A stretch of 32,955 nt of DNA from an uncultured Pelagibacteraceae bacterium (GTDB lineage Bacteria; Pseudomonadota; Alphaproteobacteria; Pelagibacterales; Pelagibacteraceae). Under the pieces are notes generated by a model, which was not told the origin of the DNA, made no database searches, and saw only the letters and a program-made list of their open reading frames with translations. Of this stretch, positions 3,084-31,044 are shown piece after piece. The stretch is from positions 140,001 through 172,955 of the forward strand of contig CACHBR010000002.1 in assembly GCA_902578115.1 (NCBI GenBank), given 5' to 3'. Positions within the stretch are counted from its first letter, which is position 1; each line of letters opens with the position of its first letter. Both the position numbers and the translations under genes were made by a program.

Positions 3084-3123
3084 TTTTTATTGGATTTTTG
3101 CTGTATTTATTTCCCTTTACAAC

Positions 3124-3178
3124 CGTTCAAAAATTGTACACTATAACGTTCAAATAATGAACGCGAGCAATTTTTAAC
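3124..3178 (+). promoter_or_regulatory. Nested inverted repeats upstream of the MarR-type regulator
   Basis: A perfect inverted repeat CGTTCA (3147-3152), AATAA spacer, TGAACG (3158-3163) lies just upstream of the regulator gene. A further direct copy of CGTTCA is at 3124-3129. It is flanked by an outer inverted repeat: GTTCAAAAATTG (3125-3136) pairs with CAATTTTTAAC (3168-3178) with one bulged base and ends directly at the ATG. A TATAAC at 3142-3147 could be a -10 box overlapping the operator. This could be a DNA operator for autoregulation by the winged-helix protein or an RNA leader hairpin. The palindrome is seen directly; its function is inferred. Confidence 0.5.
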
Positions 3179-3514
3179 ATGAGTAAAGAAGAGAATAAAT
3201 ACAACGAAAACAGTCAAGAATATCTAGAAATCTTGAGACACATTAAAAAGACCGAAGAGCTTTCTCAAAGAAATTTAGCTAAAACGTTAGGTTTTAGTTT
3301 GGGTAAATTAAATTACTTAATCAGAGCACTTCAAAAAAAAGGGTTAATAAAAATAGAAAATTTTAAGAAAAATCCAAATAAATCAAAATATCTTTATTAT
3401 TTAACACCCAAAGGTCTAACTGTAAAAACCACATTAACCTTAAATTTTATGGAAAGAAAGCTTGCAGAATACGATGAGCTTAAAAAGGATTTAGAAGGAG
3501 AAAAAGGGGAATAA
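3179..3514 (+). CDS. MarR-type EPS-associated transcriptional regulator
   Basis: A 111-residue protein made almost entirely of a winged helix-turn-helix domain. The segment at about residues 16-55 ('KKTEELSQRNLAKTLGFSLGKLNYLIRALQKKG') is the recognition HTH, and 'YLYYLTPKGLTVKTTLTLNFM' (about 70-92) is the wing and following helix. The C-terminus is a charged helix. It matches, from memory, the small 'MarR family EPS-associated transcriptional regulator' group found at the head of exopolysaccharide loci in Proteobacteria. Its stop codon shares a base with the start of the NusG-like gene (TAATG), so the two are translationally coupled. The palindrome directly upstream suggests autoregulation. 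The ATG chosen is the only one near, and no Shine-Dalgarno sequence precedes it. Confidence 0.85.
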   Translation: MSKEENKYNENSQEYLEILRHIKKTEELSQRNLAKTLGFSLGKLNYLIRALQKKGLIKIENFKKNPNKSKYLYYLTPKGLTVKTTLTLNFMERKLAEYDELKKDLEGEKGE

Positions 3515-4011
3515 TGTGGACAGTGTTAAAATTTGATAAAAAGGCTTTAGCATTGCTAAAAGAAGATCTGTCTTTAAAGTTGGGTAAGAATTTAAAAATC
3601 TATATACCAAAATTAAGAGTCCAAAAATATAAAAACAATAAATTAATTAACAAGGAGGTTAATCTGTTAGGTGACTATTTATTTTGTTTTCATGAAAATT
3701 TATCCAATAAAAAAATAAATGAAAGTTTGAAATTCTCAAGAGGATTAAAATGTATTCTCAAAGGATTTGAATCATCCCAAGAGGATATTCGTAGTTTTGT
3801 TGAGAAATGTAAATCTTCGGAATGTGAAAATGGTTTTGTTTCAAGAGATTTCTTCAATTTAGAATTAAATAGAACATATAAATTTTCATCGGGACCTTTT
3901 ACAGACAAAATTTTTCAGATCATAAATTTTCAAAGGAATAGAATTAAAATTTTAATGGGTAACATAGAAACAACAATTAATAGGAAAAAGTTTTTATATA
4001 TACCTGTATAA
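3514..4011 (+). CDS. NusG/RfaH-like specialised transcription elongation factor
   Basis: A 165-residue NusG paralogue. The N-terminal NGN domain opens with 'MWTVLKFDKKALALL' and contains 'IYIPKLRVQK' (about 29-38) and 'LLGDYLFCF' (about 51-59), the usual core strands. The C-terminal part has a KOW-like beta barrel with 'FSSGPFTDKIFQIINFQ' and 'IKILMGNIETTI' (about 124-156). It is shorter than housekeeping NusG and sits at the head of a polysaccharide operon rather than next to secE/rplK, as expected of RfaH/UpxY-like specialised factors. Such proteins ride RNA polymerase and suppress early termination in long surface-glycan operons. An AAGGAG at 3495-3500 and a GGGG at 3506-3509 precede the ATG, one of the few recognisable ribosome binding signals here. 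A G+C-rich candidate recruitment site follows at 4059-4073. Confidence 0.82.
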   Translation: MWTVLKFDKKALALLKEDLSLKLGKNLKIYIPKLRVQKYKNNKLINKEVNLLGDYLFCFHENLSNKKINESLKFSRGLKCILKGFESSQEDIRSFVEKCKSSECENGFVSRDFFNLELNRTYKFSSGPFTDKIFQIINFQRNRIKILMGNIETTINRKKFLYIPV

Positions 4012-4058
4012 ATCTAAAAAAATGTTTAAAATAATTGTAAATCGAATTTTTTACAAAG

Positions 4059-4073
4059 TGCGGAGCGTTGGCT
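4059..4073 (+). promoter_or_regulatory. ops/JUMPstart-like element in operon leader
   Basis: GTGCGGAGCGTTGGCT is strikingly G+C-rich within an A+T-rich 71-base gap between the NusG-like gene and the first biosynthetic gene. GCGGAGCGT differs from the enterobacterial RfaH-recruiting ops core GCGGTAGCGT (recalled from memory) by a single missing T. AGC (4064-4066), GTTG loop and GCT (4071-4073) can form a small hairpin, comparable to the non-template hairpin of ops. GGAG (4062-4065) is about 17 bases from the ATG, too far for a normal ribosome binding site. A role as loading site for the adjacent NusG paralogue is inference. Confidence 0.5.
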
Positions 4074-4082
4074 AAAATATAA

Positions 4083-5066
4083 ATGAAAATAGTCGTTACA
4101 GGTGGTGCAGGTTTTATCGGAAGTAATCTTGTTGATTATCTTGTTAAGAAAAAACACAAAGTAATCGTAATTGATAATTTTAGTACTGGACTTAAAAATA
4201 ATCTAAAATTGAGCCAGAAAAAAGTAAAAATAATAAATAAAGATATTTCATATAATAATAACCTTGATAGAATTTTTAAAGGAGTAGATTATGTTTTTCA
4301 TTTAGCCGGACTTGCTGACATTGTGCCAAGTATTGAAAAACCAGAATCATACTTTAGATCTAATGTGCTTGGAACATTTAATATTTTAGAAGCTTGCAGA
4401 AAAAATAAAATAAAAAAAATTATTTATGCAGCATCGGCAAGTTGTTATGGTTTACCTAAAAAATTTCCTACTAATGAACTTGAGAAAATAAATGTTAAGT
4501 ATCCTTATGCATTTACAAAATGGCAAGGAGAAGAATTGGTTAAACATTGGTTTGAAATTTATAAGCTACCATATATTTCTATGAGATTTTTTAATGTTTA
4601 TGGACCTCGTTCAAGAACTTCGGGTGCTTATGGTGCTGTTTTTGGAGTGTTTCTTGCACAAAAAGTAGCAAAAAGACCTTTGACAGTAGTAGGCTCTGGA
4701 AAACAAACAAGAGATTTTATTCACATAACTGACATTGTTGAAGCATTATACAAGGCGGCTTTTTCAAAGGTTGAAGGTAAAATTTATAATGTAGGAAGTG
4801 GAAAAGAAACAAGCGTAAATAAAATTGCAAATCTAATAAGTAAAAAAAGAATAAGTATTCCAAAAAGACCAGGTGAGCCAGATCGTTCACTTTCAGATAT
4901 TAAAAAAATCAAAAAAGATTTAAATTGGAGACCTAAAGTAAGTATTGAAAAAGGGGTTCAAGACTTATTGGAAAATTTACATCATTGGAAAAAAGCACCC
5001 GTATGGACTCCAAAAAAAATAAAAAAAGCTACAAAAGTTTGGTTTAAATTTTTGAAAAAGAAATGA
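4083..5066 (+). CDS. NAD-dependent nucleotide-sugar epimerase (extended SDR)
   Basis: A 327-residue extended short-chain dehydrogenase. It has the NAD-binding 'TGGAGFIG' (6-13), the 'HLAG' region (about 73-76), a catalytic 'ASASCYG' (117-123) and the active-site pair Tyr142/Lys146 in 'YAFTK'. 'MRFFNVYGPR' and 'RDFIHITDIVEAL' later in the chain are typical of UDP-glucose/UDP-GlcNAc 4-epimerases and related dehydratases. It probably interconverts a UDP-hexose or UDP-HexNAc at C4 in the cytoplasm, supplying precursor to the operon. It is the first biosynthetic gene after the ops-like element and overlaps the next gene by ATGA, so the two are coupled. A 4,6-dehydratase cannot be excluded. Confidence 0.82.
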   Translation: MKIVVTGGAGFIGSNLVDYLVKKKHKVIVIDNFSTGLKNNLKLSQKKVKIINKDISYNNNLDRIFKGVDYVFHLAGLADIVPSIEKPESYFRSNVLGTFNILEACRKNKIKKIIYAASASCYGLPKKFPTNELEKINVKYPYAFTKWQGEELVKHWFEIYKLPYISMRFFNVYGPRSRTSGAYGAVFGVFLAQKVAKRPLTVVGSGKQTRDFIHITDIVEALYKAAFSKVEGKIYNVGSGKETSVNKIANLISKKRISIPKRPGEPDRSLSDIKKIKKDLNWRPKVSIEKGVQDLLENLHHWKKAPVWTPKKIKKATKVWFKFLKKK

Positions 5067-6586
5067 AAAAAAAATTTTTTAAACTAGAAACATTAAAAAG
5101 GTTACTCGAAAAAGAGAAAACAATAGGAAGAAAAATAGTCCACTGCCATGGAGTTTTTGACCTTATTCATATTGGCCACATAAAGCATTTTAAGGAGTCC
5201 AAAAGACTTGGAGATATTTTAGTTGTAACTGTGACTCCTGACAAATTTGTCGATAAAGGCCCTGGAAGACCAGCATTTAAAGAGAGAACGAGGATCGAGG
5301 CTTTAGAGGCACTCGAAGATATTGATTATTTAGCTCTAAATACAGAGAGAAGTGCTTTATCAGCCATAAGAAAAATCAAACCAAATTTTTACTGTAAAGG
5401 ACCCGACTATAAAAATTTTTCTCACGATTTAACTGGCAAAATTAGTGATGAGGTAAAGGAAGTAAAAAAGTTCAAAGGTAGAGTGATTTTTACAAAATCA
5501 GAAACTTTTAGCTCAACTCGATTAATAAATGAAAACAGTGGAATTTTATCCGATGAGCAAAAAATGTTTATTAAAAATATTAAAAAAAATAATAATTTTA
5601 TTTCTACAAGAAAAAAAATTGAGAATTTCAAAAAACTTAAAGTTTTGCTTGTTGGCGAGATAATTATTGACCAATATGTTTTTTGTGAAGCCCTTGGTAA
5701 ATCAGGAAAAGAACCAGTTTTAGCTTTGAGAGATTTATATACAGAGGAGTATTTAGGTGGGGCTGGAGCTATTTCAAATCACCTTTCAACTTTTTGTAAA
5801 AATATCAAACTGTTATCTATGCTTGGGGAAAGAGAAGAGTTTAAAAAATTTATAAACTCTTCAATTCAAAAAAACGTGAATTTAGAATACATAAAAAAAA
5901 AAAATTCTCCCACAATAATCAAAAAAAGATTCTTGGATCATGTAAGTCATAGTAAAGTTCTTGGTGTCTATAAAATTAATGACGAACTGTTAACAAAACA
6001 AAATGAAAAAAATTTTAATAAAATATTAATTAAAAATCTAAAAAAATTTGATCTTGTAATAGTGTCTGATTACGGTCATGGACTTATTTCAAAAAAAAGT
6101 GCAGAAATTATAACAAAATATTCTAGATTTTTAGCTCTTAATGCGCAAGTTAATGCAGCCAATATAGGTTATCACACAATGAGAAATTACAAGAATTTAG
6201 ATTGTGTTATTATTAATGAAAAAGAGATCCGTCATGAAACAAGAGACAAAAACACAAATATAGAAAAATTAATGATAAATCTATCCAATGCACATAATAT
6301 TAAAAACTTAATTGTTACTAGAGGGTCAAGTGGATCAACAATCTTTAATTCAAAATCTCAAAAGTTTTTTTATTCCCCCGCATTTGCAAAAGCCACAATT
6401 GATAAAATAGGAGCAGGAGATGCAATGTTATCGATGGCTTCACTTTGTCTCAAAATGAAGCTTCAACCTGACATAACACTTTTAATTTCATCGTTAGCTG
6501 CAGCTTTTTCTGTAGAAAATATAGGTAATAAAAATAAAATATCCAAAATGAAAATTTTAAAAAATTTGGAAAATTTATTTAAATAA
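5063..6586 (+). CDS. Bifunctional nucleotidyltransferase-PfkB sugar kinase (HldE domains in reversed order)
   Basis: A 507-residue fusion. Residues about 24-160 are a cytidylyltransferase-fold domain with 'HGVFDLIHIGHI' (29-40), the HxGH nucleotide-binding signature, and 'FSSTRLIN' (149-156). Residues about 190-505 are a PfkB/ribokinase-type kinase with 'GGAGA' (232-236), 'VSDYGHG' (334-340) and 'IGAGDA' (449-454), whose Asp is the catalytic base. In the heptose enzyme HldE the kinase comes first and the adenylyltransferase second; here the order is reversed. The enzyme probably phosphorylates a sugar and then activates it with a nucleotide, but whether the sugar is a heptose and whether ATP or CTP is used cannot be read. 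No GmhA or GmhB gene is in the window. An A12 tract lies at 5893-5904 in the coding sequence. Confidence 0.85.
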   Translation: MKKKFFKLETLKRLLEKEKTIGRKIVHCHGVFDLIHIGHIKHFKESKRLGDILVVTVTPDKFVDKGPGRPAFKERTRIEALEALEDIDYLALNTERSALSAIRKIKPNFYCKGPDYKNFSHDLTGKISDEVKEVKKFKGRVIFTKSETFSSTRLINENSGILSDEQKMFIKNIKKNNNFISTRKKIENFKKLKVLLVGEIIIDQYVFCEALGKSGKEPVLALRDLYTEEYLGGAGAISNHLSTFCKNIKLLSMLGEREEFKKFINSSIQKNVNLEYIKKKNSPTIIKKRFLDHVSHSKVLGVYKINDELLTKQNEKNFNKILIKNLKKFDLVIVSDYGHGLISKKSAEIITKYSRFLALNAQVNAANIGYHTMRNYKNLDCVIINEKEIRHETRDKNTNIEKLMINLSNAHNIKNLIVTRGSSGSTIFNSKSQKFFYSPAFAKATIDKIGAGDAMLSMASLCLKMKLQPDITLLISSLAAAFSVENIGNKNKISKMKILKNLENLFK

Positions 6587-6590
6587 AAAT

Positions 6591-7391
6591 ATGGAAAATT
6601 ATTTTACAACTGAGGAAATTAACACTCAAAAAAGTCTAATAAAAAAAGGATATTTTATTTTTGATATTAAAGAAAAAAAATTACTGAATGAAATAAGAGA
6701 CAAAACTTTGTTTCATGTAAAGGATTGGTTTAAAAAAAGAAAAATTAAACTTAAAATAAACACAAATATATTAAACAATATTCATAAATTTATCTCAATT
6801 GAAAATTTAAATTCACTAAGGCTGCATGTTTACAATAAATTAAACTTAGATAGAAAATTTCACGAAAACTACTTTTTTATTGGCAAACAATATATTGATA
6901 TTTTATGTGGTAACGAAGTTTCTATGCAAAAAAAAGTAAATTTAAGTATCCAGCTACCTAAGGACGATAGTTCGTTATTACCAGTACATTCAGATGTTTG
7001 GCAAGGAGACTCTCCGTACGAATTAGTTTTATGGATACCTTTAGTAAACTGTGCCAAAACAAAATCAATGTATATTTTACCAAAAAAAATTAATAAAAAA
7101 TTTCAAGACAAATTATTCAAATATAATTCAACATCAAAAATTTTTGATGAGGTGAAGGGAAAAGTTAAATGGTTAGATATAAAGTATGGACAAGGACTTA
7201 TATTTACCCAAAATATTATGCATGGAAATGTAGTAAATTTAGAAAAAACTACAAGGTGGAGTTTTAATTGCAGATTCAAATCTTTACTTTCACCATATAG
7301 TGGAAAAACAATTGGTGACTTCTTTTCACCAATTACAATAAGAGCAGCTACTAGACTAGGTATGAATTATGAAGAACCTAAAAAAAAATAG
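6591..7391 (+). CDS. 2OG-Fe(II) oxygenase of the sporadic carbohydrate cluster type
   Basis: A 266-residue protein with a jelly-roll iron site: 'HSDVWQGDSPYELVLWIPL' supplies His133 and Asp135, 'IMHGNV' supplies His211, and Arg222 or Arg228 ('TTRWSFNCRFK') would bind 2-oxoglutarate. This pattern matches, from memory, the 'sporadic carbohydrate cluster 2OG-Fe(II) oxygenase' family (TIGR04324), which occurs with LIC12192-family proteins such as the one encoded directly after it. The likely role is hydroxylation or oxidation of an activated sugar. The gene starts a few bases after the kinase fusion and overlaps the next gene by 23 bases. The family name should be confirmed by HMM search. Confidence 0.78.
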   Translation: MENYFTTEEINTQKSLIKKGYFIFDIKEKKLLNEIRDKTLFHVKDWFKKRKIKLKINTNILNNIHKFISIENLNSLRLHVYNKLNLDRKFHENYFFIGKQYIDILCGNEVSMQKKVNLSIQLPKDDSSLLPVHSDVWQGDSPYELVLWIPLVNCAKTKSMYILPKKINKKFQDKLFKYNSTSKIFDEVKGKVKWLDIKYGQGLIFTQNIMHGNVVNLEKTTRWSFNCRFKSLLSPYSGKTIGDFFSPITIRAATRLGMNYEEPKKK

Positions 7392-7773
7392 CAAAGGTTA
7401 TAGAGGCTATATTTTCTCAAGAAAAATCAAAGGTTTACTTATCCCACAAAAGGTACAAAATTTAGTGATAAGAGATTATGCAAATAGAAAAAAACTTTTT
7501 TTTAAATTGAGTAAAGTTGAATATTCCTTTAGCGGATCTTATATAATGATGAAAAGTTTAATTAAAGAGACGAAGACTCTTGATGGATTAATTATTTATA
7601 GTATTAATCTTCTTCCTGAAAACAAGTCTGAGAGAAAATATTTTTTAAATAGTTTTTTAAAACAAAAAAAAAAAATACATTTTGCTTTAGAAGAAATAGC
7701 CTTAGATAATAAAAATAAGATTAGAGAAATAGAGGATATTTACTTCGTGAAAGAAAATTCTAAAGTTATTTAA
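7369..7773 (+). CDS. Sporadic carbohydrate cluster protein, LIC12192-like
   Basis: A 134-residue protein beginning 'KGYRGYIFSRKIKGLLIPQ' with 'VQNLVIRDYANR' (about 28-39), 'EYSFSGSYIMMKSLI' (about 51-65), 'LDGLIIYSINLLPE' (about 72-85) and a C-terminal 'IHFALEEIAL'. These blocks match my memory of TIGR04323, named for Leptospira LIC12192 and found sporadically in surface carbohydrate clusters. No biochemical function is known to me. The fold looks like a small alpha/beta protein reminiscent of a resolvase-like or nucleotide-binding domain, but that is a guess. It overlaps the upstream oxygenase gene by 23 bases, and the two families co-occur. An A12 run at 7664-7675 encodes consecutive lysines and could be slippage-prone. 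Confidence 0.8.
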   Translation: MKNLKKNSKGYRGYIFSRKIKGLLIPQKVQNLVIRDYANRKKLFFKLSKVEYSFSGSYIMMKSLIKETKTLDGLIIYSINLLPENKSERKYFLNSFLKQKKKIHFALEEIALDNKNKIREIEDIYFVKENSKVI

Positions 7774-7845
7774 ACTTTCAAAAAGAAACTTTATATTTTG
7801 AATATAATATGATAATTGATATATCAATTTTGAAATTATAATTAC
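7774..7845 (+). promoter_or_regulatory. Largest internal gap, with 16-base palindrome and -10-like box
   Basis: This 72-base gap is the longest inside the biosynthetic gene series. It contains TATAAT at 7803-7808 and a perfect 16-base palindrome, AATTGATATATCAATT, at 7814-7829, which would fall near a transcription start. It might be an internal promoter with an operator. The palindrome is all A+T except two bases, and one or a few of this length are expected by chance in a window of this composition. No -35 element is convincing. Confidence 0.25.
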
Positions 7846-9099
7846 ATGTCATCCAACTTTGTACCAGTAAAAAATTGTAAACTTTGTAGATCTAAAAACT
7901 TAAAAAAAGTTTTGGGTTTACCAAAATTACCAATCGGTGATAAGTATTTACCTAAAGATCAGGCACAAATGACCAAAGAAGTTTTTGAACTTGACATTAT
8001 GATGTGCCAAGATTGTTACCATTATCAGAACAATGGTTTTGTTAATCCAGATTTAATATACGATTTTTACTTATCAAGGCCAGCAGCTACCAATCCAAAA
8101 CTAGCGGAAGCTTTTAAAGAATATGCAAATTACCTGGTTAAGAATTTTTCAAACAATAAAAAGGATCTTTTTGCGGTCGAAGCAGGAAGTAACAACGGTA
8201 TATTTATTAATTATATGCAAAAAAACCTAAATATTAGAGTTTTAGGTGTAGAGCCTTCAAATTTAGCTAAACAAGCAGTAAAAAATCAAATTAACACTTT
8301 GAATACTTACTTTAATTTAGAAGTTGCAAAAAAGATAAAAGAAGAAAATGGTCAAGCTGACTTTTTTATTGCAAATCATACTTTTTCAAACATAGTGGAC
8401 AACAATGATTTTGTACAAGGCGTTAAACTTCTTTTAAAAGATGATGGCGTTTTTTCAATGCAAACTCACTATCATAAAGCTGTAATAGAAAAAAATCTGA
8501 TCGAAAATTTCACGCATGAACACTTATCTGGATTTCATGTCAAGCCGCTAAAAAGTTTTTTTGAAAGAAATGGTATGGAACTTTTTGATGTGAAAGTGGT
8601 ACCAGCGAAATCTGGATCTATCAGATGTTTTGTTCAAAAAAAAGGTGGACCAAACAAAATTCTAAAATCAGTACAAAATGTCATTGCTGATGAAGATAGT
8701 TTCGGGATGAGTAAAATTGATCGGCACGAAAGTGTAAAAAAATTTATTGAGCAAAGAAAAAAACAATTACATGATTACATCGATCCTATAATTAAAAAAG
8801 GAAAAAAAATCGCTGGTTATGGAACATCGATTGGCGCAACAACATTTAGCTTCAACTACAATTTAGGTAGTTCTATAGATTTCTTGATTGATGATGATGA
8901 ATTCAGGCAAGGTCTGTTGAGTCCATTTTTTCATATTCCTGTTGTTTCACCTAAAGCTATAGAAGAAAAAAATCCAGACTCAATACTCATTTTAGCTCCA
9001 CTTTACGCAGACAATATTATAGATCAAAATAAAAACTATATATCTAAAGGTGGCAAATTTATTAAAATTTGGCCGGAGTTCGAAATAATCAAAAATTAA
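7846..9099 (+). CDS. NDP-sugar C-methyltransferase (Methyltransf_13/23/14 architecture)
   Basis: A 417-residue protein with the three-part layout of NDP-ketosugar C-methyltransferases such as TylCIII. The N-terminal zinc-binding domain has Cys11, Cys14, Cys54 and Cys57 ('CKLC', 'CQDC'). The central Rossmann methyltransferase has SAM motif 'VEAGSNNGIF' (111-120) and the conserved 'FTHEHLSGF' (about 223-231), whose His/Glu lie at the active site in the family. The C-terminal Methyltransf_14 domain has 'IAGYGTSIGATTFSF' (about 323-337) and 'IDFLIDDDEFRQG'. The expected reaction is C-methylation of a 4-keto or 3-keto nucleotide sugar in the cytoplasm, giving a branched-chain sugar. A related but more divergent protein follows at 9124. 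Confidence 0.88.
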   Translation: MSSNFVPVKNCKLCRSKNLKKVLGLPKLPIGDKYLPKDQAQMTKEVFELDIMMCQDCYHYQNNGFVNPDLIYDFYLSRPAATNPKLAEAFKEYANYLVKNFSNNKKDLFAVEAGSNNGIFINYMQKNLNIRVLGVEPSNLAKQAVKNQINTLNTYFNLEVAKKIKEENGQADFFIANHTFSNIVDNNDFVQGVKLLLKDDGVFSMQTHYHKAVIEKNLIENFTHEHLSGFHVKPLKSFFERNGMELFDVKVVPAKSGSIRCFVQKKGGPNKILKSVQNVIADEDSFGMSKIDRHESVKKFIEQRKKQLHDYIDPIIKKGKKIAGYGTSIGATTFSFNYNLGSSIDFLIDDDEFRQGLLSPFFHIPVVSPKAIEEKNPDSILILAPLYADNIIDQNKNYISKGGKFIKIWPEFEIIKN

Positions 9100-9123
9100 T
9101 TTAATTAAAGTATAATCTAAAGA

Positions 9124-10338
9124 ATGCCCAAAATTTGTTGTAATCAAAATACTAAAGCATTAAGAACATTTAACAATCTCTCACTCTGTAATAAATTTTT
9201 AAAAACAAGAGAGCAAAAAGAGATCAAGTTTAAATTAAAATTATCACACTGCAGAAACTGTGGGCTTTTACAACTTGAAAAAGCAGTACAAGCTAACAAG
9301 ATTGCCCAACAGCACGCATGGATGAGATACTTTGAGCCAGAGGAACATTTAGATGATCTCACCCAACAAATTAAAAAAATCTGCAAATTCTCAAACAAAA
9401 AGACTATAGCAGGCATCACCTACAAAGATGATACACTTTTAAAAAGATTTAGAAAAAAACTAAATTCTAAATCGTGGAGAATAAAACCTAAGATTGATTT
9501 AAAAATCAAATATGACAGTGCGGCTAGTGAAACTGTTTTACCCAAGATAAATTCAACAAATGTTAAAAAATTAATAAGAAAATATGGGCAAGCAGACCTT
9601 TTGGTCGGTAGGCATATATTAGAACATGCTCCAAATACATTTATGTTTTTAAACCAATTAAAAAAATTAACAAAACCTAATGGATATATTTTATTTGAGG
9701 TACCAGACTGCACAAAACAAATTCAAAACAACGATTATACTATGCTCTGGGAAGAGCATAATTTATATTTTACTCCAGAAACTTTAGAAAATTATTTTGC
9801 ATCTAACTTTCCTAACTTTGAATTAGTCAAACTTTTTAAATATAAATATCCTATTGAAAATGCTCTTTTAGTTTTATTAAAAAGAAAAAAAGTAAAAAAT
9901 ATTAAAAAAAATAAATATAAACCTAGTAGAAATTTAAAAATGACTGATAATTATATTAAAAATTTTAATTTTGTAAGAGATAGTATTATAAAAAAATTAA
10001 TTTTTTTAAAAGATAAATATGGAAAAATTGCAATCTTTGGTGCTGGGCATATTTCAATTATGTTTATTAATCTTTTAAATTTAAAAAAATATATAGATTT
10101 TGTAGTAGATGATAATACAAACAAACAAAAACATTTGATGCCAGGATCTAAACTAGAAATTAAAAATAGTTCTTATCTAGTTAGCAATAAAGTAAAAATA
10201 TGTCTTATGTCACTCAATCCTTTTATAGAAAGAAAAGTAGTAAATAAAAATAAGGTTTTTTTAAAAAATGGTGGTAAATTTATTTCTATTTTTCCCTATA
10301 AAAAGAGTCAGTCTATTTTTGGTAATATAAAATTATGA
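9124..10338 (+). CDS. Divergent C-methyltransferase-like protein with degenerate SAM motif
   Basis: This 404-residue protein shares the overall layout of its upstream neighbour. It has paired cysteines near the N-terminus ('CC' at 5-6) and 'CRNC' (about 43-46), a central methyltransferase-like domain with 'VGRHILEHAPNTFMFL' (about 161-176) and 'LFEVPDC', then 'LWEEHNLYFTPETL' resembling the active-site HEH region. A C-terminal domain has 'IAIFGAGHISIMFINLL' (about 302-318). The glycine-rich SAM loop expected before strand 2 is not recognisable: 'AGITYKDDTLLKRF' sits there. It may bind SAM differently, act as a partner of the 7846 product, or no longer methylate. TATAAT at 9111-9116 lies just before the ATG, but no -35 is visible. 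Confidence 0.78.
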   Translation: MPKICCNQNTKALRTFNNLSLCNKFLKTREQKEIKFKLKLSHCRNCGLLQLEKAVQANKIAQQHAWMRYFEPEEHLDDLTQQIKKICKFSNKKTIAGITYKDDTLLKRFRKKLNSKSWRIKPKIDLKIKYDSAASETVLPKINSTNVKKLIRKYGQADLLVGRHILEHAPNTFMFLNQLKKLTKPNGYILFEVPDCTKQIQNNDYTMLWEEHNLYFTPETLENYFASNFPNFELVKLFKYKYPIENALLVLLKRKKVKNIKKNKYKPSRNLKMTDNYIKNFNFVRDSIIKKLIFLKDKYGKIAIFGAGHISIMFINLLNLKKYIDFVVDDNTNKQKHLMPGSKLEIKNSSYLVSNKVKICLMSLNPFIERKVVNKNKVFLKNGGKFISIFPYKKSQSIFGNIKL

Positions 10339-10395
10339 TACTGAATTTAATTAATTTACACATTCTAGTAGAAAAAAAATTATCTGAATAAAAAA

Positions 10396-11103
10396 ATGAA
10401 AAAAGATGTATCGATTGTTGTTGGAGGAAGCAAAGGTATAGGAAGAGCAATTTATCTAAATTTAAAAAAACAAAACAAGAAAGTTTTTGTGGTATCAAGA
10501 TCTAAAAAGTCCAATGATCATATATCTGTAGATCTGTCTAAAAAATACGAAATTCAAAGCGCAATAAAATCTAAAATTGCCTCAAAGTATAAAGTTAAGA
10601 ATCTTATTTTTTGTCAAAGATATAGAGGTGATGATTTAGAAGGACACTTTGAGACAGCGTTGTTTTCATCACACTGCTTTATTGAGGCAATTAAAAAAAA
10701 TCTAGCTAAGAATTGTTCAGTAGTATTTATTAATTCAATTGCTAGTCAGTTTATTGTGAGCGAGCAAAATCTTGGTTATCATTTGTCTAAGGCAGCTCTT
10801 GAAAATTTTGTTAAATATAATGCTGTAGAATATGGAAAAAAAAGGGTCAGATTTAATTCCATTTCTCCCGGAACAGTTATTAAGCCCGAAAGTGAAAATT
10901 TTTTTAAAAAGAGTAAAAAATATAGTGTTGTCTCTAAAAAAGTAATACCTTTACAAAGATTATGCAAAGTAGACGATATAATTAATCTCACAAACTTTTT
11001 GTGTAGTGATAAGTCATCATATATTACAGGTCAAAATATTGTATTAGACGGCGGATTATCAGTAATAGGGCAAGAAACAGTAGCGAGAAAATTTATTAAA
11101 TAA
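10396..11103 (+). CDS. Classical SDR oxidoreductase (FabG-like)
   Basis: A 235-residue classical short-chain dehydrogenase with cofactor loop 'GGSKGIG' (10-16), active-site Ser114 in 'INSIAS', and Tyr128/Lys132 in 'YHLSK'. The 'SPGTV' and C-terminal 'GQNIVLDGG' are also typical. The usual NNAG strand-4 motif is replaced by 'FCQRYRGDD' (about 72-80), which marks a subtype rather than loss of function because the catalytic residues are intact. In this context it probably reduces a keto group on a nucleotide sugar or side chain rather than serving fatty acid synthesis. It sits between the C-methyltransferases and a second SDR, with only a few bases before the next gene. Confidence 0.85.
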   Translation: MKKDVSIVVGGSKGIGRAIYLNLKKQNKKVFVVSRSKKSNDHISVDLSKKYEIQSAIKSKIASKYKVKNLIFCQRYRGDDLEGHFETALFSSHCFIEAIKKNLAKNCSVVFINSIASQFIVSEQNLGYHLSKAALENFVKYNAVEYGKKRVRFNSISPGTVIKPESENFFKKSKKYSVVSKKVIPLQRLCKVDDIINLTNFLCSDKSSYITGQNIVLDGGLSVIGQETVARKFIK

Positions 11104-11106
11104 TTT

Positions 11107-12093
11107 ATGAAATTTAAAAAAATTTTGATAACAGGCGGCGCCGGATATGTTGGCTCTTTACTAACTGAGCAATTAATTAATTTAGGTTATGTGGTAACAG
11201 TTCTAGATCTAATGATTTATGGAGAAGATGTTTTAAAAAAAAATAAAAATTTAAATATAGTTAAAGGTGACATCAGAGATCAAAATTTATTAAATGAAAT
11301 TATCCCAAGCCATGATGTTGTTATACACTTAGCATGCATTTCAAATGACCCTAGTTTTGAATTGAACCCAACACTTGGTAAATCAATTAATTTGGACTCC
11401 TTTTTACCCTTAGTTCAGATTTCAAAGAATTCAGGTGTAAAAAGATTCATTTATGCTTCTTCTTCATCTGTTTATGGCATCAAAAAAGAACAGGATGTTC
11501 ATGAAGACATGTCACTAAACCCATTAACAGATTACTCAAAGTATAAAATGGAATGTGAAAAAATTATTTTAAAATTTAAATCTGAAGACTTTGTTCCTAT
11601 TATAATAAGGCCAGCTACTGTATGTGGATATTCTCCAAGGCAAAGATTGGATGTTGTTGTAAATATCTTTGCTAACCTAGGTTATAATAATCGTGAAATA
11701 AAAGTTTTCGGGGGAGAACAGCTTAGGCCAAATATACATATAAAGGATATGGTTAACGCTTATTTAATTTTACTTCAATCTGAGGATAAAAAAGTATCAG
11801 GTGAAATATTTAATGTAGGCTATGAAAATGTGTCTGTTCAAGATTTAGCAAAAACTACTAAAAATGTTCTGGGAGATGATATAAAATTGAAAAATATATC
11901 TTCTGATGACAATAGGTCCTATCATATATCATCAAAAAAAATTAAAGATGTGTTAGAATTTTCTCCAAAATATACTATCAAAAATGCTATTGAAGATCTT
12001 AAAAATGCTTTTGAAAATAAATTACTACCAAATTCTTTAGAGGATGAAAAATATTTTAATATAAAAAAAATGCAGAAAATTAAATTAAAGTAA
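11107..12093 (+). CDS. NAD-dependent epimerase/dehydratase (extended SDR)
   Basis: A 328-residue extended SDR with 'GGAGYVG' (10-16), a catalytic 'YASSSSVYG' segment (about 116-124) and a Tyr-Ser-Lys-Tyr-Lys active-site run in 'DYSKYKMECEKI' (about 141-152). 'RPATVCGYSPRQRLD' and 'RPNIHIKDMVNAY' complete the fold. It acts on a nucleotide sugar in the cytoplasm, as an epimerase, 4-reductase or dehydratase, and I cannot choose between these from sequence. It ends two bases before the aminotransferase gene at 12096, and order and spacing suggest the two work consecutively: keto sugar formation then transamination. Confidence 0.82.
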   Translation: MKFKKILITGGAGYVGSLLTEQLINLGYVVTVLDLMIYGEDVLKKNKNLNIVKGDIRDQNLLNEIIPSHDVVIHLACISNDPSFELNPTLGKSINLDSFLPLVQISKNSGVKRFIYASSSSVYGIKKEQDVHEDMSLNPLTDYSKYKMECEKIILKFKSEDFVPIIIRPATVCGYSPRQRLDVVVNIFANLGYNNREIKVFGGEQLRPNIHIKDMVNAYLILLQSEDKKVSGEIFNVGYENVSVQDLAKTTKNVLGDDIKLKNISSDDNRSYHISSKKIKDVLEFSPKYTIKNAIEDLKNAFENKLLPNSLEDEKYFNIKKMQKIKLK

Positions 12094-12095
12094 TC

Positions 12096-13199
12096 ATGAG
12101 AGTTAGGTATTCATATTTAAGACAACAATTTTCTAACTGTCCGGATTTATGGTCAAGATTAAAGAAGTTTGTCAAAACCGGCGATTTTACTTTAGGAAAG
12201 CCATTGCAGGAATTTGAAAAAAAATTTGCAAAGTTAATTGGCGTTAAATATGCTGTAGGAGTAAATTCTGGAACCGATGCAATTAAACTTCCTCTTAAAG
12301 CATTAAATATCAAGCCAGGTGATGAAGTCATAACTGCGGCAAACACTTTTGTGGCAACTGTAGGAGCAATCTCGGAATTAGGTGCTAAACCAATATTTGT
12401 AGATTGTGATGATACGTTTTGTTTAAATACCGATCAAATTGAAAAAAAAATAACTAAAAAAACTAAGGCAATTGTTCCCGTTCATTTTACCGGGTATATG
12501 ACGTTTATGCCAAAATTAATGAAAATTTCAAAAAAACACAAAATACCAATAATTGAAGATGCATGTCAGTCTATCCTAGGAGAAATAAATCATAAAAAAG
12601 CTGGAAGCTGGGGTTTGTTTGGTGCATTTTCACTTCATCCATTAAAAAATATTAATGTTTGGTCTGATGGAGGAATTATTACCACGAATAATTACAAATT
12701 TTATAAAAAACTTTTATTACTAAGAAATCATGGTTTAATAGATAGAGATACCGTAAAAATAAATGGTTTTAATTCTAGACTGGACACTTTTCAAGCTGTT
12801 GTTGGAAACTGGCTGTTACCTAAGGCAAAAAATATTGCAAAACAAAGAATTAGAAATGCAAAATTTTATGATGAAAAATTATCAAAAATAAAACAAATTT
12901 CTATTCCACCAAGACCAAAAAATTATAAAATTGTTTATCATCTTTATATAGTTTTTGCTCAAAAAAGGGACAAGCTTTTAGAATATTGCAGGTCAAAGGG
13001 AATAGAGGCCAAAGTACACTATCCAAAACCCATGTATTTACAAGAAAGTCAAAAATACTTAAAACATAAAAGAGGTGATTTTCCAGTAACTGATGCCCAT
13101 ACAAAAAAAATTATAACATTTCCTTGTGATCAACACTTAAAAGCTAAAGAGCTAAAATATGTTGTTGATACCGTTCAAAAATTTTACTCAAAAAATTAA
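12096..13199 (+). CDS. DegT/DnrJ/EryC1/StrS sugar aminotransferase (first of tandem pair)
   Basis: A 367-residue PLP-dependent aminotransferase. 'VNSGTDAI' (56-63) binds the PLP phosphate, 'IEDACQS' (153-159) holds the Asp contacting the pyridine nitrogen, and 'FSLHPLKNIN' places the Schiff-base lysine at 184. Length is normal for the family, which aminates NDP-keto-sugars using glutamate. It begins two bases after the preceding SDR gene and its stop is directly followed by the ATG of a second DegT gene. The two products share the same landmarks at nearly the same positions, suggesting an old duplication with divergence to different substrates or ring positions. Confidence 0.88.
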   Translation: MRVRYSYLRQQFSNCPDLWSRLKKFVKTGDFTLGKPLQEFEKKFAKLIGVKYAVGVNSGTDAIKLPLKALNIKPGDEVITAANTFVATVGAISELGAKPIFVDCDDTFCLNTDQIEKKITKKTKAIVPVHFTGYMTFMPKLMKISKKHKIPIIEDACQSILGEINHKKAGSWGLFGAFSLHPLKNINVWSDGGIITTNNYKFYKKLLLLRNHGLIDRDTVKINGFNSRLDTFQAVVGNWLLPKAKNIAKQRIRNAKFYDEKLSKIKQISIPPRPKNYKIVYHLYIVFAQKRDKLLEYCRSKGIEAKVHYPKPMYLQESQKYLKHKRGDFPVTDAHTKKIITFPCDQHLKAKELKYVVDTVQKFYSKN

Positions 13200-14306
13200 A
13201 TGAAAATACCATACGTAGACTTACAGGCTCAATGGAGAGCAGAAAAAAAAGAGCTTTTACCAAGAATAAGCAACATATTATCCAAAGGTCAGTATGTAAT
13301 TGGCCAGGAAATTGATAAATTTGAAAATAATATTACAAAAATTTCAAAAACAAAATACGCTGTGGCTTTAAACAGTGGGACTGATGCTCTAACTTTAGGA
13401 CTTAAATTGATTGGAGTTAAAAAAGGTGATGAAGTAATAACACCCCCAAATTCTTTTATATCTTCAACTACTTCAATTGCCCATGTTGGTGCAAAACCTG
13501 TATTTGCAGACGTTCTTAAGGATCAAAACATAGACCCAAGACAAATAGAGAAGAAGATAACAAAAAAAACGAAAGCAATTATGCCGGTTCATTTAACGGG
13601 ACGTGTATGTGAGATGAACCCTATTCAAAAGATTTCAAAAAAATATAATATTCCAATAATTGAGGACGCAGCACAATCTATTGGTTCAAGATATTTTAAT
13701 AAACAATCTGGGTCATTTGGTGAAGTGGGTTGTTTTTCTGCACACCCATTGAAAAATTTAAATGCTTGTGGTGATGCAGGTTTTTTAGTCACAAATAACT
13801 TTGAAATATACAAAAAGGCAAGAATTTTAAGAAATCACGGTTTAGAAAATAGAAATAAGGTAAATCATTTTGGTTTTATTTCTAGAATGGACATTATACA
13901 GGCTGCAATACTTAATTTTAGATTAAAAAAATTAAATTCTACCGTTAAAAAAAGAAGGGCTAATGCAGACTTTTATTTTAAAAATTTAGATAGAAAATTT
14001 TATTTTTTAAATGATGAAAAAGAATATCAATTTAATACTTATCATACATTTGTTGTACAAACTCCAAAAAGAGATAAATTGATTGAATTTCTAAAAAAAA
14101 ACAACATTGGAACTGCAATTCATTATCCAATACCAATTCATCTTCAGCCAGCATCAAAGTATTTAGGTTTTAAAAAAGGAGCTTTCCCCGAAACTGAAAA
14201 ACAAAGTAAAAAAATTATTACCATTCCAATCCATCAAAATTTATCAATGTCTAACCTTAAAAAAATAGTTCATTTGATGAATAAATTTGCAAAGAACAAT
14301 TCCTGA
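13200..14306 (+). CDS. DegT/DnrJ/EryC1/StrS sugar aminotransferase (second of tandem pair)
   Basis: A 368-residue aminotransferase with 'YVDLQAQW' (5-12), 'LNSGTDAL' (57-64), 'IEDAAQS' (154-160) and the PLP lysine at 185 in 'HPLKNLN'. 'IHYPIPIHLQPA' near the C-terminus is typical of the VioA/WecE/QdtB side of the family. It starts on the base after the upstream stop and its own TGA overlaps the transketolase start (TGATG), so translation is coupled in both directions. The product likely installs an amino group on a second keto-sugar or at a second carbon. The formyltransferase at 19471 could act on the resulting amine. Confidence 0.88.
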   Translation: MKIPYVDLQAQWRAEKKELLPRISNILSKGQYVIGQEIDKFENNITKISKTKYAVALNSGTDALTLGLKLIGVKKGDEVITPPNSFISSTTSIAHVGAKPVFADVLKDQNIDPRQIEKKITKKTKAIMPVHLTGRVCEMNPIQKISKKYNIPIIEDAAQSIGSRYFNKQSGSFGEVGCFSAHPLKNLNACGDAGFLVTNNFEIYKKARILRNHGLENRNKVNHFGFISRMDIIQAAILNFRLKKLNSTVKKRRANADFYFKNLDRKFYFLNDEKEYQFNTYHTFVVQTPKRDKLIEFLKKNNIGTAIHYPIPIHLQPASKYLGFKKGAFPETEKQSKKIITIPIHQNLSMSNLKKIVHLMNKFAKNNS

Positions 14307-15130
14307 TGCCCAATCCTTTGAAAATAAAACTTGATAAAAGATCCAAATATTTAAGAAGTTTAGTTGTAAGATCTCTTTTGGGAGGTGGAAGAGGTCACAT
14401 GGGTTCAGCAATGTCTTTAATCGAAATTCTTAGAGTACTCTATGATGATATAATTAATTTTAAAAGTTCTCAGCCCAAAAAAAAAGATAGAGATAGAGTA
14501 ATTTTAAGTAAGGGTCATGGATGTTTGGCACTATATGCTGTCCTAGCAGATAAAGGTTTTTTTAAAAAAAGTGAGCTTGATAAAACAAGTAAGTTTGATT
14601 CTATACTGGGCGGACACCCTGAGTCTCTAAAGGTAAAAGGAGTAGAGGCTTCGACCGGAGCTTTAGGACATGGTTTAAGCATTGGAGTAGGAATGGCTAT
14701 AGCAGCAAAGATTAAAAAACAGAAACATAAAATATTTGTTATATTAGGTGATGGAGAAATTAACGAGGGATCTATATGGGAAGCTGCTTTGTCAGCTTCA
14801 AAACATAAGCTTAATAATCTTAAAATTCTATTAGATTATAATAAAATTCAATCATATGGTTTAGTTAAAGAAGTTTTAAACTTAGAACCCTTAAAAGATA
14901 AATGGAAAAGTTTTGGTTTTGATGTATCAGATGTTAATGGGCATAATATTAAACAACTTAAGAAAAATTTAACAAAATTTATTAGTGATAAAAAGAATAA
15001 ACCCTCAATAACGATTTGCAACACAATCAAAGGAAAAGGCTTTTACTTTGCTGAAAATAACCCAAAATGGCATCATAGAAATTCGTTTACAAAGGAAGAA
15101 ATTGACAATTTAAATCAGTGTTTAAAATAA
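14306..15130 (+). CDS. Transketolase, N-terminal subunit (split)
   Basis: This 274-residue protein corresponds to the thiamine-pyrophosphate-binding half of transketolase. It has 'GGGRGHMGSAMS' (26-37), 'LSKGHGCLALYAVL' (67-80), 'GGHPE' (102-106), 'STGALGHGLSIGVGMA' (116-131) and the TPP/Mg motif starting at 'GDG' (148-150) and ending at Asn179. The C-terminal half is encoded by the next gene, so a functional enzyme would be a heterotetramer. Split transketolases occur in archaea and some bacteria. Finding one among NDP-sugar genes implies transfer of a two-carbon unit to a sugar of this pathway, or local supply of a seven-carbon precursor. Both are inference. Confidence 0.9.
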   Translation: MPNPLKIKLDKRSKYLRSLVVRSLLGGGRGHMGSAMSLIEILRVLYDDIINFKSSQPKKKDRDRVILSKGHGCLALYAVLADKGFFKKSELDKTSKFDSILGGHPESLKVKGVEASTGALGHGLSIGVGMAIAAKIKKQKHKIFVILGDGEINEGSIWEAALSASKHKLNNLKILLDYNKIQSYGLVKEVLNLEPLKDKWKSFGFDVSDVNGHNIKQLKKNLTKFISDKKNKPSITICNTIKGKGFYFAENNPKWHHRNSFTKEEIDNLNQCLK

Positions 15131-15139
15131 ATATTTTAT

Positions 15140-16066
15140 ATGAGAAAAACTTCTTTAGATACCGTTTATAAACTAGCTAAAAAAAACAAAAATATAATTT
15201 TTATAGGTTCAGATCTTGGACCTGGTGTTTTGGATAATTTCAAAAAAGAAATGCCAGAACGATTTTTAATGGAAGGAGTTTCAGAGCAATCAATAATCGG
15301 TCTATCGGCAGGTTTAGCAATGGAAGGATTCATTCCGTATGTAAATACAATTGCTACATTTATAACAAGAAGATGCTTCGAACAAATTGTTGTTGATCTT
15401 TGTCTACATAATTTACCAGTAAAATTAATTGGAAACGGAGGAGGATTAGTTTATGCACCTCTGGGTCCCACACATCAAGCAATTGAAGATATATCAATAA
15501 TGAGATCCATACCAAATATGTCAATAATTTCACCTTGTGACGCGGTTGAAATGAAGGCACTGATTGAACAATCTGTTGATTATAAAGGTCCTCTTTACAT
15601 CAGATTGGCTAGAGGTGGAGATAAAATAATTACTGAAAAAAAAGATTTGATACAGATTGGTAAAGGTATAGTAAAAATTGAACCTCAAGATTATCTCTTT
15701 TTAACCACTGGAGTAATGACTCAGATAGCGATTGAAGCGTCAAATTTTTTAAAGAAAGAAAAAAATGTAGAATGCGGAGTCATACATCTTGGAACAATTA
15801 AACCTTTAGATACCAAGCTACTTTTAGAGTGGATACCAAAAGTAAAAAAAGTAGTAACAGTTGAAGAAAATGTACTTTCCGGAGGATTTGGGAGTAGCAT
15901 TCTTGAATTTACAAGCGAGCATTTTCCAGAAAATTTAACCAAAATTAAACGAATAGGACTGGAAGATAAATTTATTGAACAATATGGTAGTCAAGATTTG
16001 CTTTTAAAAAGTAATAACTTGACTAAAGAAAATTTAATAAAACATATACTTTCTTTTATTAATTAG
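15140..16066 (+). CDS. Transketolase, C-terminal subunit (split)
   Basis: This 308-residue partner supplies the pyrimidine-binding and C-terminal domains. 'FLMEGVSEQSIIGLSAGLA' places the thiamine-activating Glu at residue 49. 'YVNTIATFITRRCFEQI' and 'GPTHQAIEDISIMRSIPN' follow, then 'YIRLARGG' and a C-terminal domain with 'VEENVLSGGFGSS'. These fit the pyr domain and transketolase_C. It begins nine bases after the N-terminal subunit gene. Together the two make a complete enzyme of about 580 residues, smaller than the roughly 660-residue fused housekeeping transketolase. Substrates of such split, cluster-located enzymes are usually not central-metabolism sugars. Confidence 0.9.
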   Translation: MRKTSLDTVYKLAKKNKNIIFIGSDLGPGVLDNFKKEMPERFLMEGVSEQSIIGLSAGLAMEGFIPYVNTIATFITRRCFEQIVVDLCLHNLPVKLIGNGGGLVYAPLGPTHQAIEDISIMRSIPNMSIISPCDAVEMKALIEQSVDYKGPLYIRLARGGDKIITEKKDLIQIGKGIVKIEPQDYLFLTTGVMTQIAIEASNFLKKEKNVECGVIHLGTIKPLDTKLLLEWIPKVKKVVTVEENVLSGGFGSSILEFTSEHFPENLTKIKRIGLEDKFIEQYGSQDLLLKSNNLTKENLIKHILSFIN

Positions 16067-16095
16067 TCATTTTTTTTTCATCAATTATAAAACTA

Positions 16096-17409
16096 ATGTC
16101 GAAAATCTATTCAAAGTTAAAAACAACGTATATTGAAGTTGGTTTTAAGATATTTGTAATTAAAATTTTTAAATTTATAAAAAAAAATTTTACTGTTTTT
16201 TCTATTTTCCTTTTTCTTTTACCACTTCTCCTGGTTATAGTATTTTTAGTTAGATTTGTTTCAATTTTTAGACAAGTAAGATTTTTCTCATTAAACTTTG
16301 ACAGAATTGGTAATCTATACCCATTATATTGGTATCAAAAATTACAAAGCCAAACTTCTGGAAAGTTTATTGATTTATTTTTTATAGGACAGCAAAATGT
16401 AAGATTAATAACTTGGAAAAATATTACAACTAGAAAAATAATAGTGTTACCGTTTAGTTTAATTTGGAAAAATTTTATTTTTCTAAATAATTTTTTTTGG
16501 AATAGTGAAAAATATAAAATTAAAGATTTATCTTATTTAACTTCTTATTACTCAACCCAACAAAATTATGAAGAATCTTCAAAGATTATTAAAGATTTAA
16601 ACTTAGATTATTTTTTACAAAAAAAAATTAATCTTTTGAACTTTAAAAAAAAAGAAATTAAAATTGGTCAAGAATTTTTAAAAAAAAAAAAAACTAAAGA
16701 TTTTACTTATGTTTGTTTTTCCTCAAGAGACAGTGCTTACTTAAAGTATTACAACAAAAATAAAAATTGGGATTATCATAATTGGAGGAATTGCAATATA
16801 GATAATTATCAATCTGCATTAAACTATTTATGTCAAAAAGATATAGTTTGTTTTAGAACAGGCTATAAAGTAGAAAAAAAAATTTCATTTTCAAACGATA
16901 AAATTATTGATTATGCAGACTCAATTTATCAATCCCAATTTTTAGATATATATTTGCCAAGCAGATGTTTATTTTCAATAAATGCTCAATCAGGAATTAC
17001 TATTCCTGCCGAATTTTGCGGTAGACCAATTGTTTATGTAAATTGGCCTGACATGCATTTAAGTGCTTGGCACAATAATTCATTAGTTATTTTTAAAAAA
17101 TTTTTTTCAAGTAAAAAGAAAAGATACTTAAAATTTAAAGAAATTTTAGATTTAGATCATAAAGTTCTAACAAGTAATTTTAAAATAATACAAAAAAAAT
17201 TTGATATTGTGCTAGAAGAGAATAGTCCGGATGAGATAAAAGATGTAGTTGAGGAGCAATTGAAAAGAATTAATAACGAATGGGTAGAGACAAATGAAGA
17301 CAAAATACTGCAGAAAAAATTTTGGAATATATACGAAAAAAAATTTGTTAAGTCACCGACATTTAGAGTAGGCGCAAACTTTCTTAAAAAAAACATTCAC
17401 CTTATATAA
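16096..17409 (+). CDS. Putative glycosyltransferase, TIGR04372-like, membrane-anchored
   Basis: A 437-residue protein with a basic start and a transmembrane segment at about residues 33-58, then a cytoplasmic or interfacial domain. 'YVCFSSRDSAYL' (about 205-216), 'NWRNCNIDNYQSAL', 'VCFRTGYKVEK' and 'SINAQSGITIPAEFCGRPIVYVNW' match the layout I remember for TIGR04372, a glycosyltransferase family of sporadic carbohydrate clusters. The neighbour at 17409 has the same blocks, so the two form a paralogous pair. An A14 homopolymer at 16680-16693, encoding Lys196-Lys199 with adjoining bases, is the longest I see in the window and would shift the frame if it slipped. The stop overlaps the next start (TAATG). 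Confidence 0.72.
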   Translation: MSKIYSKLKTTYIEVGFKIFVIKIFKFIKKNFTVFSIFLFLLPLLLVIVFLVRFVSIFRQVRFFSLNFDRIGNLYPLYWYQKLQSQTSGKFIDLFFIGQQNVRLITWKNITTRKIIVLPFSLIWKNFIFLNNFFWNSEKYKIKDLSYLTSYYSTQQNYEESSKIIKDLNLDYFLQKKINLLNFKKKEIKIGQEFLKKKKTKDFTYVCFSSRDSAYLKYYNKNKNWDYHNWRNCNIDNYQSALNYLCQKDIVCFRTGYKVEKKISFSNDKIIDYADSIYQSQFLDIYLPSRCLFSINAQSGITIPAEFCGRPIVYVNWPDMHLSAWHNNSLVIFKKFFSSKKKRYLKFKEILDLDHKVLTSNFKIIQKKFDIVLEENSPDEIKDVVEEQLKRINNEWVETNEDKILQKKFWNIYEKKFVKSPTFRVGANFLKKNIHLI

Positions 17410-18812: not shown

Positions 18813-19474
18813 TGAAACAATTAAATTTTATATCATCACTCCATAAATCTACTAAGAGAGACTACATTGAAAGAATGATTAATGAGAAAGTTAAATGTGT
18901 AAAAATCGCAAAAAAATATGACTTTCATTATTGGGATGGAAATAGAAAATATGGATACGGTGGATATAAATTTATTGATGGTCGATGGTCGAGTGTTGCA
19001 AAAAAAATTATAAAATTCTACAAATTAAATAATAAATCTAAAATACTAGATGTTGGTTGCGGAAAAGGATATTTATTATATGAAATTAAAAAAATTTTAC
19101 CAAAAATCAAAATTAAAGGATTTGATATTTCAGCTTATGCAATAAAGAATAGCAAAAAGGAAATAAAAAAATATCTTTTTAGACATGATGTAAAAAGAAA
19201 ATTTCCTTTCAAAAAAAAAGATTTTGATTTGGTAATATCTTTAGGATGTTTACACAACCTTAAAATTTTTGACTTAGAAAAATCATTAAATGAGATTTCC
19301 AGGGTTGGGAAAAAACAATATATTATGGTTGAAAGTTTTAGAAATGATAAAGAATTGTTTAATTTACAATGCTGGGCTTTGACAGCTGAGTCTTTTTTAC
19401 ATGTTTTAGAATGGAAGTGGACCCTAAAAAAATTCAATTATGAAGGTGATTACGAATTTATTTTTTTTGAATGA
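18812..19474 (+). CDS. Class I SAM-dependent methyltransferase
   Basis: A 220-residue Rossmann methyltransferase with 'ILDVGCGKGYLL' (about 74-85), an acidic strand-2 end in 'KGFDIS' (about 99-104), 'PFKKKDFDLVISLGCLHNL' (about 131-149) and a C-terminal 'GDYEFIFFE'. The N-terminal 60 residues carry 'FHYWDGNRKYGYGGYKFIDGRW', an aromatic, glycine-rich lid that may bind the sugar substrate. Start and stop both overlap neighbouring genes (TAATG upstream, ATGA downstream). It is likely an O- or N-methyltransferase for a sugar in the same glycan; target position unknown. Confidence 0.85.
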   Translation: MKQLNFISSLHKSTKRDYIERMINEKVKCVKIAKKYDFHYWDGNRKYGYGGYKFIDGRWSSVAKKIIKFYKLNNKSKILDVGCGKGYLLYEIKKILPKIKIKGFDISAYAIKNSKKEIKKYLFRHDVKRKFPFKKKDFDLVISLGCLHNLKIFDLEKSLNEISRVGKKQYIMVESFRNDKELFNLQCWALTAESFLHVLEWKWTLKKFNYEGDYEFIFFE

Positions 19475-20217: not shown

Positions 20218-20218
20218 C

Positions 20219-21780: not shown

Positions 21781-21812
21781 TTTTTTTACAATTTCTCAAA
21801 TAAAAAATAAAA

Positions 21813-23564: not shown

Positions 23565-23607
23565 TAATAATAGCAAGGTAAACTAATTTTTATAAAAAAA
23601 ATAAATT

Positions 23608-24624: not shown

Positions 24625-24627
24625 AAA

Positions 24628-29375: not shown

Positions 29376-29379
29376 GTTT

Positions 29380-31035: not shown

Positions 31036-31044
31036 TATAATTAA

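Follow-up and report, generated by a model that had tools for sequence, protein, structure and literature searches.

How NusG paralogues encoded within their own operons locate these operons has been stated to be unknown (PMC7593976), and whether non-template hairpins that lack T6 recruit other factors has been posed as an open question (PMC11001881). Both questions are raised by a locus of a SAR11 bacterium in which the gene for a small NusG-like protein is followed by a G+C-rich site and a long run of surface-glycan genes; the whole 32,955-nt stretch of DNA that was analysed is referred to below as the window. Among homologues of the window from named genomes, the eight closest all carry the label Pelagibacteraceae, which places the window in a SAR11-family genome. 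The SAR11 element quite likely serves as a loading site of the ops/JUMPstart type for the operon-encoded NusG paralogue, within a module autoregulated by MarR_EPS. A literature search for RfaH together with SAR11 found no paper.

Gene organization and the leader site

The module and its putative target lie on the forward strand. The open reading frame at 3179..3514 scores 117.5 bits with the profile of the MarR_EPS repressor (TIGR04176), above the cut-off of 88, and overlaps the frame at 3514..4011, which encodes a 165-aa NusG paralogue of the RfaH/UpxY-like kind and whose stop codon ends at 4011. The first gene of the target operon, an NAD-dependent epimerase/dehydratase recognized from the ORF list and a family match, occupies 4083..5066, and all genes 3' of the leader site run in the same direction up to the end of the window, which is also the end of the contig; this co-directional surface-glycan cluster (4083..32955, from the ORF list) is the presumed target. 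As with ops-type elements, the leader in which the SAR11 site lies precedes a long surface-polysaccharide operon.

Taken alone, the paralogue is too diverged to match any Pfam family, and its scores with the UpxY (NF033644; 22 bits, cut-off 100) and RfaH (TIGR01955; 15.8 bits, cut-off 144.5) profiles are below the family thresholds; a PDB profile search by sequence gave nothing useful. Among 102 relatives, UpxY is the best NCBIfam match for 59, and there are hits to RfaH for 14, LoaP for 9 and NusG for 4. The AlphaFold model (pLDDT 88.6) consists of an NGN domain and a KOW domain predicted with high confidence to be beta-stranded, and Foldseek matches this model to structures of NusG and RfaH, among them RfaH bound to the ops-paused complex (8phk) and together with ops DNA (5ond). 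These predictions support the identification of ORF 3514-4011 as a NusG-type protein, in line with the earlier note on this DNA, which had placed a small NusG/RfaH-like gene ahead of the G+C-rich site. An order-level search found no paralogue outside the SAR11 family.

The core of the site in the window is AGTGCGGAGC-GT-TG (4057..4070). The chance of finding AGTGCGGAGC within a 49-nt stretch of the local composition is about 2e-6. The 16-mer GTGCGGAGCGTTGGCT (4058-4073) starts 46 bases past the paralogue stop, a gap originally counted as 48. It has no second copy in the window (0.02 occurrences expected with up to 3 mismatches), nor in the entire 959-kb assembly when as many as 3 mismatches are allowed; the full site thus occurs once in the genome, which removes the earlier concern that it might recur at many unrelated places. 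Rfam contains no match for the leader element, and a search of the leader for an intrinsic terminator found none.

Conservation of the site across SAR11

In a sample of 397 SAR11-family genomes, there are 132 copies of AGTGCGGAGC, distributed over 119 genomes, compared with about 9 occurrences of the reversed-pattern control, and the paralogue is represented by 106 copies in 105 genomes. The exact 10-mer follows 99 of the 106 paralogues on the same strand, at a distance of 37-85 bp (mostly 42-58) counted from the last matched codon; six of the other seven carry, at the same place, a variant with one or two changed bases (AATGCGGAGC in three cases, TGTGCGGAGC, AGTACGGAGT and TTGCGGAGC), and one has none. 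Clustering at 50% identity divides the paralogue proteins into 47 groups, and identity between the leaders is only about 36% over the 30-60 nt ahead of the site versus 100% in the site itself, so that the conservation of the site does not simply reflect the closeness of the genomes. The comparison of homologous leaders that had been proposed as a check yields a core that is invariant in 99 of 106 leaders of otherwise diverged sequence. The first downstream genes belong to 38 homology groups, which, together with the divergence of the leaders, indicates that the site is part of the NusG module, whichever gene follows it.

The extended motif can be written as hairpin-AA-AGTGCGGAGC-NN-TG; of the 99 loci, 92 have T at position 13 and 91 have G at position 14. 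Position 12 (4068 in the window) is A or T in 97/99, mostly giving ATG or TTG, a preference for which the pause model discussed below does not account. A mini-ORF of the form GTG-CGG-AGC-NNT-GNN-stop was considered and rejected, given that a stop at positions 17-19 is present in only 46/99 loci and that the conserved bases are the third codon positions, not the first and second.

Away from the paralogue, 32 of the 33 other copies of AGTGCGGAGC look like chance matches within genes, the exception being a trans site (L106) described below. Among the matches listed for TGCGGAGC-NN-TG outside the paralogue loci, 59 of 60 lie inside open frames, a loose test in that 46 of the 99 genuine sites also touch an open frame; two pattern scans revealed no convincing extra copy besides L106 among the matches listed.

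A covarying hairpin in the leader

Immediately upstream of the site, the window contains a conserved leader hairpin, TTGTAAA-N8-TTTACAA (4035..4056), whose 3' end lies at -14 from the predicted pause. In 88 of the 99 leaders, a stem with 5 or more consecutive base pairs is found at this place; the hairpin ends 0-3 nt ahead of the 10-mer. The 3' arm is of the TTTACA or TTTGCA type in 62 leaders, and the remaining 37 mostly have other letters in the arms with the pairing kept, for example, TACAAAA/TTTTGTA, GACTT/AAGTC or TTATCGAAA/TTTTGATAA. The pairing score of these 37 atypical leaders is 11.3, versus a maximum of 8.9 in an arm-swap control that ignores kinship, the arm changes being many and mutually unlike; in a shift control with all 99 leaders, the score is maximal at exactly the position of the hairpin. 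The leader hairpin is variable in sequence, with its pairing maintained by covariation, and its loops (3-14 nt) have no conserved sequence and are not of the UNCG type read by LoaP.

The 3-bp AGC/GCT hairpin described in the earlier note is present in the window and is not conserved: of the 98 leaders that could be read here, only 41 have the G15 that it requires. What matters structurally is the invariant GCG-G-AGC core, together with the upstream covarying hairpin.

Relationship to ops, RfaH and JUMPstart

When E. coli RNA polymerase is paused at ops, the non-template strand forms a mini-hairpin, opsHP, with the pairs G2:C9, C3:G8 and G4:A7 and a G5-T6 loop, and the pause is at U11 (PMC11001881); every validated target has TG at ops positions 11-12, and T6 is inserted into a pocket of RfaH formed mainly by H20, R23, Q24 and R73 (PMC5995543). 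The SAR11 core GCGGAGC (4060..4066 in the window) corresponds to the enterobacterial ops hairpin, GCGG(T)AGC, minus T6, which identifies the single base by which the site had been reported to fall short of ops. At the sequence level, all three opsHP pairs are retained in 99/99 exact sites; these bases are invariant, so covariation cannot test the pairing. T6, which is required for RfaH, is missing from all SAR11 sites, and two bases instead of one precede the TG, such that the length from G-10 to T-1 is unchanged. The ops pause register, G-10...T-1 G+1, is preserved, with G4 of the motif invariant and T13 and G14 kept in 92 and 91 of the 99 sites, and would correspond in the window to G-10 at 4060, T-1 at 4069 and G+1 at 4070.

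Given the absence of T6 and the scores below the family cut-offs, the SAR11 element is not classed as a member of the ops/RfaH group. With RfaH/ops in the E. coli JUMPstart, which was matched in 5,375 of 5,426 genomes, it shares the GCGG.AGC core, the register, the polysaccharide leader, a NusG-family factor and a hairpin just 5' of the site; the E. coli stem, CTGG...CCAG, directly precedes ops in the inspected loci (L269-L272). Unlike ops, the SAR11 site lacks T6 and has one extra base after the mini-hairpin. Unlike RfaH, the SAR11 factor is encoded within the operon that it precedes, is associated with MarR_EPS regulation, and has a KOW domain predicted as beta, as opposed to the autoinhibited alpha-helical form of RfaH. 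In a weak alignment of the paralogues to RfaH, H20 of the T6 pocket corresponds to D or E in 83/102 proteins and R73 is kept as K or R in 93/102, a combination that might make sense for recognition without a flipped T.

Probable MarR_EPS operators and a site in trans

In 98 of 104 loci, the MarR gene directly precedes the paralogue, and TTCA-N5-TGAA occurs at least once 5' of MarR in 92 of 98 SAR11 loci, usually in two copies about 22 bp apart that flank the region of the promoter and transcription start, which makes autoregulation likely. In the window, a promoter/operator region identified by direct reading (3116..3162, with TTTACA at 3116-3121) contains a degenerate operator, GTTCAAAAATTGTAC (3125-3139), and a second one, GTTCAAATAATGAAC (3148-3162). 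The same pattern is found 5' of MarR_EPS in a locus of another class (L226) and at the trans site L106; judging by this distribution, TTCA-N5-TGAA probably represents the MarR_EPS binding site.

A property of RfaH is action in trans on several unlinked operons. SAR11 genomes normally have one site, beside the paralogue gene; genome G296 contains a second site 11 kb away (L106, G296:C1:92818-92827), with no adjacent paralogue and an operator-promoter of its own; the next gene has its start codon within this site. The arrangement points to use in trans. The gene that ends 5' of L106 was recognized by eye and is presumably 23S rRNA.

Related arrangements in other lineages

Most MarR_EPS loci of other families have no adjacent NusG paralogue, and a convincing ops-like site 3' was found only in L226. 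This locus (L226/L243), which belongs to a family of another class and was found via the MarR_EPS loci of the wider phylum, consists of the operator GTTCAATATGTGAAC and MarR_EPS, followed by an RfaH-like gene, a hairpin (TCCGGGTGA...TCACCCGGA), the exact ops sequence GGCGGTAGCGTG and further genes. Six more members of the family possess the RfaH-like gene, the hairpin and ops, and the arms covary (AATTCAG/CTGAATT, ACAACAG/CTGTTGT, ATGTAGG/CCTGCAT). These seven loci (L243, L244, L246, L249, L250, L253 and L255) share with SAR11 the order of RfaH-like gene, covarying hairpin and site, and L243 additionally shares MarR_EPS and the TTCA-N5-TGAA operator; unlike SAR11, they have the exact GCGGTAGCGTG with T6, and MarR_EPS adjoins in one of the seven. 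Several of them, judged by eye, run into what we take to be nucleotide-sugar genes. The hairpin precedes ops at a nearly equal spacing in E. coli (L269-L272) and in L243-L255.

As the other-class loci and the JUMPstart have the same layout, the combination of hairpin and ops is recurrent and the SAR11 element is a variant of it. The parallel with ops drawn in the earlier note is thereby strengthened in three respects: the preserved pause register, the exact-ops layout with RfaH-like genes in another class and the trans copy. Bacteroides UpxY resembles the SAR11 factor in being a NusG paralogue encoded in the capsule operon under its control; the SAR11 protein scores far below the UpxY cut-off, and no matching cis site for UpxY was found in the literature examined. 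LoaP and the dfn operon likewise combine an operon-specific NusG paralogue with a leader hairpin; unlike the SAR11 factor, LoaP reads an RNA hairpin with a UNCG loop, and no DNA site was found for it (PMC12691694), whereas the SAR11 leaders have a hairpin of variable sequence and an invariant DNA core.

A model of factor loading and the alternatives

Under the loading-site model, MarR_EPS would repress its own promoter via the TTCA-N5-TGAA operators, and when the promoter fires, RNA polymerase would read marR, nusG and then the leader. The leader RNA hairpin would form and the polymerase would reach a consensus-type pause (G-10...T-1 G+1), where the exposed non-template GCGGAGC may fold into an ops-like mini-hairpin read by the NGN domain of the paralogue. 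The paralogue would then remain on the polymerase, displacing NusG, and suppress Rho-dependent and pause-related polarity, allowing expression of the cluster of about 28 glycan genes. We infer that loading of the factor on RNA polymerase probably lets this run of surface-sugar genes be transcribed. Counting against the model are the absence of T6, which is essential to the specificity of RfaH, along with the D or E that mostly replaces H20 in the weak alignment, the preference for A or T at position 12 and a sigma-70-like TTTACA-17-TAAAAT that overlaps the site.

The last-named sequence could be an internal promoter that drives the glycan genes, with TTTACA as the -35 element, TAAAAT as the -10 element and the 10-mer within the 17-bp spacer. 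It is the joint top promoter-like match of the region (10/12), and a -10-like hexamer at that distance, 16-18 bases into the site (TAAAAT at 4073-4078 in the window), is present in 57/99 loci versus a background of 28/99. Nevertheless, an invariant spacer is not expected of a promoter, about half of the 37 atypical leaders have no -35 element yet retain the hairpin pairing, an ORF of at least 80 codons opens at the NTG of the site, 5' of the would-be transcription start, in 21 loci, and L106 has its own upstream operator-promoter, all of which renders an internal promoter highly improbable. The same NTG, present at motif positions 12-14 in 91/99 loci, and those 21 frames could speak for a translation signal, with GGAG as the ribosome-binding site, or for the start of a leader peptide. 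The spacing between GGAG and NTG is, however, just 2 nt, the frame from NTG has a median length of 6 codons, ATG and TTG are nearly equally frequent (45 vs 44), unlike in normal starts, the first gene starts elsewhere in most loci, up to 149 nt off, and neither the upstream hairpin nor the invariant TGC is needed for ribosome binding; we regard this explanation as extremely improbable.

A signal in RNA, whereby a LoaP-like paralogue would bind, once transcribed, either the hairpin of the leader or AGTGCGGAGC in its RNA form, would make use of the covarying hairpin and has a precedent in LoaP, which binds an RNA hairpin in the leader of its target (PMC12691694). In SAR11, the sequence and loop of the hairpin are unconserved, unlike the UNCG loop of LoaP, and what is invariant matches the ops hairpin and the pause register. 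The same arrangement, with ops as the site, recurs in the JUMPstart and in the other-class loci, and E. coli ops is recognized as DNA, so that reading at the RNA level seems distinctly unlikely. A possible, if doubtful, extension of the loading-site model is bipartite recruitment, by an RNA hairpin in the exit channel together with a non-template DNA mini-hairpin without a flipped base, the combination of hairpin and ops being ancestral for operon-encoded NusG paralogues and the JUMPstart a derived, trans-acting case. If so, the recognition rule would differ in kind from base flipping by RfaH.

The approximately 100 diverged factor-site pairs of SAR11, which is among the most abundant groups of bacteria, are natural replicates of a T6-less ops hairpin with a compensated register, and they make both questions posed at the outset (PMC7593976, PMC11001881) directly testable. 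They also suggest that the JUMPstart hairpin is functional, as well as a way in which SAR11 could keep one regulator ahead of highly variable O-chain clusters.

Composition of the glycan cluster

Among the genes of the cluster identified by eye, those within 25777-32954 include what we take to be NeuA-, PseG- and NeuB-like genes, which suggests that the glycan may contain a nonulosonic (sialic-acid-like) sugar. Two adjacent genes at 14306-16066 presumably represent a split transketolase-like protein. In the HldE-like protein (5063-6586), the adenylyltransferase domain comes first and the kinase domain second, the opposite of the domain order in E. coli HldE.
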